Assembly: GCA_022773965.1 (NCBI GenBank)
Contig: JALFNQ010000144.1
Location: forward strand, 1-38,692
DNA length: 38,692 nt
Reading direction: 5' to 3'
Source: Lachnospiraceae bacterium
Lineage (GTDB): Bacteria > Bacillota > Clostridia > Lachnospirales > Lachnospiraceae
Position 1 is the stretch's first letter; each line of letters opens with the position of its first letter. A program made the translations under genes and the position numbers. Positions 13,967-32,792 of this stretch are shown one piece after another. The notes under the pieces were generated by a model. It was not told where the DNA came from and ran no database searches. It saw only the letters and a program-made list of their open reading frames with translations.

Positions 13967-14040
13967 GTCCCTGTTCAGTGCCTTCACAAATACGATGCAA
14001 AAATGCATGAAAATTGCTTCGACCTGTTCTGAACAGTTAC
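13967..14040. mobile_element. 74-bp MITE-like element (copy A), GT(CC)CTGTTCAG...CTGAACAGTTAC
   Basis: Termini match copy E at 31872; flanks TTCATTCC / TCCATTCC agree at 7 of 8 bases (target duplication). Confidence 0.65.
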
Positions 14041-14107: not shown

Positions 14108-14141
14108 TCGTTACTGTTCACTCGCACACACGTTCCAGTAA

Positions 14142-14372
14142 TTAGCTCAATGCGTTCTTGATCTGCTCAACCGCATCGCCTACCGTGCTGATCTTTTCTG
14201 CTTCCTCAGTGGGAATCTCAATGTCAAATTCTTCCTCGATTCCCATGATGATCTGGAAAATATCCAGCGAATCTGCTCCGAGATCATCGATAAAGGTTGT
14301 CTCCTCTGAGATCTCATCCTCGTCTACATTCAGCACTTCCACAATGATTTTTTTCAGCTTTTCCAGTTCCAT
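14142..14372 (-). CDS. acpP: Acyl carrier protein
   Basis: Phosphopantetheine site [15 protein letters not shown]. Confidence 0.96.
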
Positions 14373-24518: not shown

Positions 24519-24545
24519 GTAACTGTTCATTACCCTCACAGCTAC
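24519..24545. repeat. 27-bp solo hairpin related to MITE termini (copy D)
   Basis: GTAACTGTTCATTACCCTCACAGCTAC; flanks AATCTGTG / GATCTGTC share ATCTGT in register. Confidence 0.55.
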
Positions 24546-24579
24546 GATCTGTCCTTCATAAAAACTATTCTTTCAAAGA

Positions 24580-27105: not shown

Positions 27106-27369
27106 CTACTTCTGAAAATTCTTTCTGATATAGTCAGCAAGCAGCTCCTCTACTAGCTCATCACGCTCCACCTTCATGATCAGGCTGCGCGCGTTATTGT
27201 GACTCGTAATATATGTCGGATCACCGGACATGATATAGCCTACGATCTGATTCAGAGGGTTATAGCCTTTCTCTGACAAAGAGCGGTAAACGATCTCCAA
27301 CACATCCTTTACCTGTATCTCCGGTTCTTTTTCCACTTTAAAAAATTGTGTCTGATTCTTATCCTGCAT
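27106..27369 (-). CDS. IreB family regulatory phosphoprotein (DUF965)
   Basis: [38 protein letters not shown]. Confidence 0.94.
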
Positions 27370-27502
27370 AATTTCACGTCCTCTTATGTGCTCTCTTTTG
27401 TATTTAAAACTGTTTCAAGCACGATTCTTTTTTATTGTAATATAATTGTAACAAAAATTCAACCTTTATTCGTATTGAAACAGATCCACCTAACATAACA
27501 AA

Positions 27503-27636
27503 GTTACATTTCAGACCCCAGCCTGAAATGTAACGAATTTGGCAATGCTTCGCATGAAAAATCGCCAAATTCATGGCTCATACATGTTTTTGGCACGTAG
27601 CCCGCAGTGAATGCTGGCTACTGTGTGAAAAGTAAC
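27503..27636. mobile_element. 134-bp MITE-like element (copy M) inserted in mtaB 3' end, 8-bp target duplication ATAACAAA
   Basis: Termini GTTACATTTCAGACCCCAGCC and (rc) GTTACTTTTCACACAGTAGCC match at 16/21; ATAACAAA at 27495-27502 and 27637-27644; two internal hairpins. Confidence 0.75.
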
Positions 27637-28972
27637 ATAACAAATACAGTTCCTCTGTCAGCGCCTCGCCCACAACTCCGGAAAAAAGCCGGTTCGTGTA
27701 AGCAGCTTCGTCCATATCCGGTGTAAGCTCCATGGCAAGACGCACGTATTCCGGTGTAAAGCCCACCATATAGCGCTTTTCACCGATCTGCACAGACTCC
27801 TCAAAAAGCACAGTCTGTGTTTTTCCGACATAGTACTCCCGAAACTCCTTTGACTGTGCCTTTTCCAGCGCCAGCAGTTCCACACTCCGCTCTTTTTTCA
27901 CAGTCTCCGGTATCTGATCCGGCATACGTTCTGCCCGTGTCCCATGACGTTTGGAATACTGGAACACATGCATTTCATAAAAACCGATGCGCTCCAGAAA
28001 CTGCTTTGTCCGGGCAAATTCTTCCGGTGTCTCCCCCGGAAATCCCACGATCACATCCGTCGTGATCGCCGGGTGCTCAAAAGCCCCACGTAAAAGCTCA
28101 CAGCTGCGGGCATACTCCTCCGTTGTATATTTACGGTTCATGCGCACAAGTGTCTCATCACAACCGCTCTGCAGGGAAAGATGAAAATGCGGACAGATTT
28201 TTGGAAGCTTTCCCAGCTGCTCCACAAAATCTTCTGTGATGATCCGCGGCTCCAGAGAACCGAGACGAATCCGTTCAATTCCGGGTATCGCGTGCACCAT
28301 CCGGATCAGGTCAAGCAGTCCAAAAGCTTCCCCCACACCGTAGGAGCTCAGATGAATACCCGTCAGCACGATCTCACGATAGCCGTTTTCTGCCAGTGTC
28401 CGGGCCTCCTCGTAGACACTCTTCGGATCCCGGCTGCGCACTCTGCCCCTGGCATAGGGAATAATACAATAGCTGCAAAACTGGTTACAGCCATCCTGCA
28501 CCTTCATAAAAGCCCGGGTATGCTCACCTGTTTTTGAAAGGATCATTTCCTCATAAGGCTGCACACCATCGTTGATGTCGATCACATCCACCGTATGCTC
28601 ATGTGCCTCAAAATACTGATCCAAAAGCGGGATCAGCTCCGCCTTTTTATTATTTCCGATCAATATATCGATTGAGAGATCCTTTTTGATCTCCTCCCCG
28701 GCAGTCTGCACGTAGCAGCCAGCGGCAACGATCACCGCCTGCTCATTTTTTCCTCTGGCCCGGTGGATCATCTGGCGTGATTTACGGTCTGCCATATTCG
28801 TCACGGAGCAGGTATTTATGATATACACGTCTGCAATATCTGCAAAATCCACGATCTTGTATCCAGCCTGTTCTAACATCTGCTGCATGGATTCCGTCTC
28901 GTATGCATTTACTTTGCAGCCGAGATTATGCAGGGCTGCCGTTCGTTGTTTCATTTCTTTTTTCACTGTCAT
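27578..28972 (-). CDS. mtaB: tRNA (N6-threonylcarbamoyladenosine(37)-C2)-methylthiotransferase MtaB
   Basis: LGCKVNAYETESM, radical SAM CNQFCSYCIIPYARG; last 18 residues encoded by copy M. Confidence 0.93.
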   Translation of the reverse strand: MTVKKEMKQRTAALHNLGCKVNAYETESMQQMLEQAGYKIVDFADIADVYIINTCSVTNMADRKSRQMIHRARGKNEQAVIVAAGCYVQTAGEEIKKDLSIDILIGNNKKAELIPLLDQYFEAHEHTVDVIDINDGVQPYEEMILSKTGEHTRAFMKVQDGCNQFCSYCIIPYARGRVRSRDPKSVYEEARTLAENGYREIVLTGIHLSSYGVGEAFGLLDLIRMVHAIPGIERIRLGSLEPRIITEDFVEQLGKLPKICPHFHLSLQSGCDETLVRMNRKYTTEEYARSCELLRGAFEHPAITTDVIVGFPGETPEEFARTKQFLERIGFYEMHVFQYSKRHGTRAERMPDQIPETVKKERSVELLALEKAQSKEFREYYVGKTQTVLFEESVQIGEKRYMVGFTPEYVRLAMELTPDMDEAAYTNRLFSGVVGEALTEELYLLCYFSHSSQHSLRATCQKHV

Positions 28973-29056
28973 TTTATTCCTCTTATGAGTTGACTTTTCC
29001 ATGGAAAAACGGTACTATGAACATAGATAAAAACGTATTCCAAGGAGGTTTTTTAT

Positions 29057-31871: not shown

Positions 31872-32004
31872 GTAACTGTTCAGTACCCTCACAGTCACGA
31901 TGCAAAAATCCATGAAAATCGTCTTCGCCGATGGGATTTTTGCACTCCTGAATCATTTTCTCACGATCTACGCGGTTCCGCTCCGATCTGTTCTGAACTG
32001 TTAC
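31872..32004. mobile_element. 133-bp MITE-like element (copy E), GTAACTGTTCAG...CTGAACTGTTAC
   Basis: 12-bp inverted termini with one mismatch; flanks TCTTGTTC / TCTTGTTA (7 of 8); internal hairpin TGCAAAAATCCAT/ATGGGATTTTTGCA. Confidence 0.75.
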
Positions 32005-32036: not shown

Positions 32037-32792
32037 TCACCTTGACTCCATGCTATGACTCATCTCCAGATGCATCATGAGCATGGACAGCATGGTAATG
32101 GATGCCGTGTCCGTGCGCAGGATCCGTTTTCCCAGCGAGATCACCTGCGAATCTGCACGCAACGACTCGATCTCCTCTCCGGCAAAACCGCCCTCCGGAC
32201 CGATAAACACACTGATGGATTCCACTCCTTTCAAATGTTCAAAGGCACGCGCAGTTGCCGCCATTCCCTCCTCGTTCTCATAGGGTACCAGACGGCAATC
32301 ACACCGCATCGCGTAGGCTGCCGCATCCTGAAAGCTCATCAGCGGGTGAATCCTTGGTATGATGCTGCGTTTGGACTGTTTTGCCGCGCTGCGGGCGATC
32401 TCCTGCCAACGCGCCACCTTTTTTTCTGCTTTTTTTTCATCCAGTTTTACCACACAATATTTCATAGCCACGGGAATGATCTCATAGACACCCAGCTCCA
32501 CGGCCTTCTCAATAACAGTCTCCATACGCTCCCCCTTGGGGATGCCCTGAAACAAATAGATCTTTGCCGGGAGCTCCGTGCCGGGAATATCTTTTTGTTC
32601 AATGTGAAGCAATACCTCCTGTTCTGACAATGCCTCTATGCTGCACAAAAAGTCCCTGCCGATCTGATTGCTGATGCGCACCCGCTCTCCAGGCTTCATG
32701 CGTAATACATTTTTCATGTGATTCACATCGGAACCGATGACCCGGATCGTATCCTCGCCGATCTGGTTGTCCTCTACAAAAAACTGATACAT
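32037..32792 (-). CDS. rsmE: 16S rRNA (uracil(1498)-N(3))-methyltransferase RsmE
   Basis: FIGPEGGFAGEEIE, LGKRILRTDTASI; GGAGG RBS before MYQFFVED. Confidence 0.95.
   Translation of the reverse strand: MYQFFVEDNQIGEDTIRVIGSDVNHMKNVLRMKPGERVRISNQIGRDFLCSIEALSEQEVLLHIEQKDIPGTELPAKIYLFQGIPKGERMETVIEKAVELGVYEIIPVAMKYCVVKLDEKKAEKKVARWQEIARSAAKQSKRSIIPRIHPLMSFQDAAAYAMRCDCRLVPYENEEGMAATARAFEHLKGVESISVFIGPEGGFAGEEIESLRADSQVISLGKRILRTDTASITMLSMLMMHLEMSHSMESR

Follow-up and report, generated by a model that had tools for sequence, protein, structure and literature searches.

A 134-bp inverted-repeat element at the end of mtaB in a Lachnospiraceae genome and its relatives across the group

The tRNA t6A37 methylthiotransferase gene mtaB ends inside a 134-bp element (27503-27636, plus strand) in the window, i.e. 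the whole stretch of 38,692 nucleotides of Lachnospiraceae DNA analysed here. We consider this element, with a probability of roughly 93%, to be a MITE which was inserted by a trans-acting transposase, hit the end of mtaB and adds 18 element-encoded residues to its product.

The altered end of mtaB

The mtaB gene (27578-29002, minus strand, 474 amino acids) was identified in a profile search with NCBIfam TIGR01579 (residues 24-426, 448.6 bits), a model that stops well short of the MtaB tail, and its end was defined by empty-site comparison. It is followed by ireB and then ruvX. The element is flanked by perfect copies of the 8-bp target site duplication ATAACAAA (27495-27502 and 27637-27644), and its inverted-repeat ends GTTACATTTCAGAC and GTTACTTTTCACAC agree at 12 of 14 positions; a preceding sequence-only reading had given coordinates, duplication, inverted ends and reading frames correctly. 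The direct repeat at the mtaB site comprises 12 nt (TAACATAACAAA), the TAAC of the target being the same as the end of the element. Due to this match, the boundary cannot be fixed from the mtaB copy alone; other copies in the genome, 27 of them with perfect duplications, show that the element runs GTTAC...GTAAC and that the duplication measures 8 bp.

Cutting out 134+8 bp joins the flanks to the predicted empty site CCTAACATAACAAATACAG, in which mtaB ends CTG TAT TTG TTA TGT TAG and the protein ...EELYLLC*, the ancestral end that had been proposed. With the element present, mtaB reads C-YFSHSSQHSLRATCQKHV-TGA. The codons across the junction are TAC TTT TCA CAC ... CAT GTA TGA, and the last 18 residues, the YFSHSSQHS tail among them, together with the TGA stop are element sequence which is matched at other copies; the number of added residues and their origin had thus been given correctly. 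The claim that the stop codon had been replaced needs a small correction, as the old TAG still exists. It now lies beyond the element at 27490-27492 (minus strand, by flank join), unused and pre-empted by the in-element TGA. The predicted MtaB tail is presumably translated.

Mechanistically, a transposase acting in trans, probably of the DDE type, would have made an 8-bp staggered cut and thereby duplicated ATAACAAA. The element would have entered the last mtaB codons with its right end leading, as seen from the gene, and MtaB would have gained 18 element-encoded residues past its last conserved stretch. The downstream gene ireB (27106-27369, minus strand; NCBIfam NF003997, 128.9 bits) is the expected neighbour of mtaB in sister species. 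Its promoter-like site TTGAAT-17-TACAAT (27434-27462, minus strand) is intact, 40 bp beyond the element, and the joined mtaB flanks can be aligned to sister species, also across the conserved TTGAAT...TAAAAT block ahead of ireB.

Sister species, compared by one genome each, lack the 134-bp element at this site, and the YFSHSSQHS tail is absent from MtaB of all nine of them, in line with the insertion read from the sequence. After the conserved LY (or equivalent), length and sequence of MtaB vary across these nine species, with ends such as LFC-RADDAAK..., LFRLS, LFAHD, SFDVHGEQYNS, RVEF and IIQNL. Since MtaB tails vary freely in the genus and the ireB promoter is spared, the insertion was probably tolerated and may be nearly neutral. 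In one sister species (G006), mtaB ends VTIHGPGGRS* inside a 147-bp element with the duplication ggatagcc/ggataacc; as this element belongs to a different subfamily and lies in the opposite orientation, it represents a separate event. A second species (G005) has a 187-bp relative with GTAAC-type ends (gaatgatg/gaatcgtg) in the mtaB-ireB gap and a third (G002) a possible 31-bp remnant there. These cases suggest that the gap may be a favoured target, hit in 3-4 of 10 species in a pattern noticed post hoc. Occupied in at least three of the ten, it offers a natural test site for insertion preference.

Copies in the host genome

The element in mtaB belongs to subfamily A, whose other full-length copies in this genome are about 90-98% identical to it. 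Inverted-repeat search and folding reveal a left hairpin (27503-27534) formed by the terminal repeat GTTACATTTCAG and an inverted inner copy CTGAAATGTAAC (12/12 complementary) and a middle hairpin GAATTTGGC...GCCAAATTC (27535-27572). Inverted-repeat search and covariation across subfamilies define a right hairpin GTAGCC-CGCAG...TGCT-GGCTAC with a widely shared CAG...TG loop (27597-27621), and the right terminal inverted repeat GTGTGAAAAGTAAC (27623-27636), common to most copies, closes the element (all plus strand).

The source genome is a 3.4-Mb draft of 260 contigs, about 90% complete. A DNA search with the element gave at least 41 matches (40 of 163 candidates were scored), and after pattern searches 88 distinct places with element sequence were found. 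By alignment extent 62 of the 88 are full length, a few of them reaching a contig edge, i.e. about 60, and the further copies anticipated from the mtaB site are therefore present. They fall into two subfamilies distinguished by the left hairpin, A with 134 bp and GTTACATTTCAG...CTGAAATGTAAC, B with 144 bp and GTTACAATTCACAC...GTGAATTGCAAC. Among 56 copies with both flanks, the 8-bp duplication is perfect in 27, has one mismatch in 10 and two in 8. The end pattern GTTACWNTTCA matches the genome 221 times, as compared to 19 for the reversed control. About 60 full-length copies and this excess exclude a chance origin.

Several contigs of the draft terminate in element copies. Some copies (L213, L215, L175, L202, L191, L198, L214 and L168) have an intact right end and a variably truncated left part without duplication, and are probably deletion remnants. 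A LINE-like 5' truncation was considered for them and rejected, because sampling favoured right ends and left-only copies also exist. Derivatives of 34-39 bp, barely more than the two terminal repeats, occur at L161 (253-291) and in another genome (L332 of G012). At L016 (500-661), the duplication TAACTGTC of an A copy is directly abutted by another GTTACTTTTCACAC end, i.e. the two insertions lie side by side.

Four further genes with recognisable families terminate within element copies in this genome: RNase H (L037) ends LLLFTQ* in place of LV*, a spermidine-synthase-like protein (L155) QLSFTQ* in place of QAL*, a metallophosphoesterase (L209) VLQFTRQPADL* in place of VSAIFQGIL*, and a resolvase (L197) TLQFTCQSADL* in place of ITFSPEM*. 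In a placement count of 38 other copies with good duplications, exclusive of the copy in mtaB, the majority were intergenic and 11 lay within an open frame according to crude gene calls. Four of these 11 are at most 60 bp from the frame end, five at most 57 bp from a predicted, possibly mis-called start. Predictable gene-end tails such as LLFTQ*, LQFTxQxADL* and YFSHSSQHS... can mislead annotation.

A wider family, its fold and its mobiliser

Elements in three other genomes (G004, G006 and G008) have ends, duplication and layout in common with the present one, but not stem sequence. Many other Lachnospiraceae genera show a strong enrichment of the 12-mer GTTACTGTTCAC, with 217 matches versus 2 for the control in G403, 173 versus 0 in G136 and 118 versus 0 in G246. 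Ten of 20 places fetched from GTTACTGTTCAC-rich genomes contain a complete element with an 8-bp duplication (0-2 mismatches), some of these with another internal plan. Family members examined are mostly 130-200 bp long, many with 8-bp duplications and most with the common hairpin layout, the stems of which change by paired Watson-Crick exchanges. Copies of the family are numerous in this major gut-bacterial group and are found where contigs of draft assemblies break off. Two elements from different genera, L307 (G004) and L333 (G403), differ at about 4 of 133 aligned positions (about 97% identity), a similarity which suggests transfer between genera. Phage and plasmid collections gave no element match, and viral contigs yielded 74 stretches with GTTACTTTTCACAC, nearly all of them single matches.

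The window itself holds a second full member of 133 bp (31872-32004, plus strand) with GTAAC-type ends GTAACTGTTCAG/CTGAACTGTTAC and the duplication TCTTGTTC/TCTTGTTA. It has a similar middle hairpin and a CTGAATCATTTTCTCACG linker, and sits just past the stop of a minus-strand ORF ending at 32037. A remnant GTTACTGTTCACTCG...CCAGTAA at 14110-14145 directly abuts the stop of a minus-strand gene that probably encodes an acyl carrier protein, and precedes a terminator-like palindrome. Two more decayed fragments of GTAAC type lie at 13997-14040 and 24519-24550.

Most of the members examined share a fold plan: a left hairpin containing the inverted inner end copy, a middle hairpin whose inner loop is lopsided, a CTGAATCATnTTCTnACG linker and a right hairpin with the CAG...TG loop. 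In a sequence-only alignment of the right hairpin from 15 diverse members, 89.6% of the cells pair, and covariation is 0.781 as compared to 0.208 for shuffled and at most 0.149 for slid alignments. For the middle hairpin, aligned from nine members with segments delimited by eye, the values are 0.547, 0.202 and at most 0.330, and in this genome its bulge lies on the opposite side. Both sets consist of few, related sequences picked for sharing the plan.

This layout, kept over several genera with paired changes in the right and middle hairpins, would also fit an element retained at gene ends mainly for its function as a structured RNA or regulatory cassette, e.g. as a terminator or RNase III site, with mobility secondary. 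The earlier suggestion that the hairpins supply the 3' end of the mtaB mRNA bears on the same point. The mtaB strand carries a single terminator-like hairpin (27534-27503, then TTTGTTATGT; one site versus 0.3 expected), a faint hint that the element might serve as mtaB terminator. We regard the structured-RNA explanation as rather improbable. The orientation at mtaB differs between species, and an Rfam search of the element gave no match at gathering threshold or at E<=1. Stem changes within this genome show no wobble preference (39 G-U, 56 A-C and 55 other mismatches; G-U versus A-C, two-sided binomial, 0.10), and changes of the right hairpin across subfamilies are two-sided in 42 cases and one-sided in none, i.e. 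there is no one-sided G-U step, unlike in typical RNA helices. The lack of G-U steps or excess would rather argue for constraint at the DNA level or wholesale stem replacement than for ordinary RNA selection. We tentatively envisage, at clearly less than even odds, a Lachnospiraceae-wide superfamily in which the fold is conserved while stems are replaced wholesale, some transposase or host factor recognising the fold, probably as DNA. For a short mobile element, a conserved shape with free sequence is unusual, and it opens structure-guided transposition to testing.

Concerning the mobiliser of the presumed MITE, elements of 134-144 bp have no room for a transposase gene. No interval of 0.4-6 kb with matching ends and an 8-bp duplication was found among the 369 sequences examined for an autonomous partner; the family end pair expected of a candidate mobiliser is GTTACTGTTCAC...GTGAACAGTAAC. 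Paired intervals of 0.3-2.2 kb between terminal repeats (L155, L156, L158, L196 and L296) contain ordinary genes. The resident IS256 copy has ends (GAGTCTGTGAAAG) that do not match the element, and the host has no ISL3 transposase match (profiles searched, PF00872, PF01610 and PF03050; host draft about 90% complete). IS66 insertion sequences generate 8-bp target duplications and have ends that begin with GTAA. This equal length and the GTAAC ends of some family members could indicate an IS66-derived element that an insertion sequence of this type mobilises. However, the ends of IS66 copies in the genus read GTAAGCG, and neither the host nor the copy-richest genomes G403, G136, G246 and G161 have an IS66 transposase, by which this very unlikely origin appears largely refuted. 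In G008, a fragment of IS66 lies 95 bp away from a GTTACTGTTCA end, an association that did not generalise. Least credible of all is a misjoin of a repeat to the mtaB end during assembly, conceivable in a draft of 260 contigs several of which end in element copies, since this copy lies in the interior of a 38.7-kb contig, is flanked by a perfect duplication, which a misjoin would not create, and faces ireB, the neighbour expected from sister species.

Comparison with known elements

Gene-end remodelling by MITEs is already known in other bacteria. MITEs fused to genes have been described in enterobacteria, Yersinia, Neisseria and Rickettsia (PMC2229807). The element family and its shape-conserving evolution, as judged from sequence comparison, look new: in openly licensed papers, no relevant description turned up for the end sequences or for Lachnospiraceae MITEs, and a 2024 review of prokaryotic MITEs mentions neither Clostridia nor Lachnospiraceae (PMC10969869).

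Like the present element, the enterobacterial MITEs YPAL/RU-2 and ERIC/RU-1 are intergenic, 100-200 bp long, form stable hairpins, duplicate their target and make in-frame fusions with other reading frames, and co-translation with upstream genes has been reported for YPAL (PMC2229807). They differ in phylum and termini (ERIC has 5'-TA ends) and form a single long end-to-end stem, whereas the present element has separate hairpins and an 8-bp duplication. The RUP element of Streptococcus pneumoniae has TA-type ends and is tied to an IS630-like transposase. Likewise a Firmicutes element with terminal repeats and many intergenic copies (107 bp, about 100 copies), it is supposed to be mobilised in trans (PMC2229807). 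The present element is set apart from it by the 8-bp duplication and by the fact that no parent was found. Caulobacter CIR repeats resemble it in their phylogenetically conserved structure of two arms and a linker (PMC2229807), but have neither terminal repeats nor a proven duplication, both of which are present here. Rickettsia palindromic elements are known for inserting into reading frames without closing them. Like the element in mtaB, these small repeats lengthen proteins by additional residues (PMC2229807). The present element differs from them in its position at gene ends, where it provides the stop codon.
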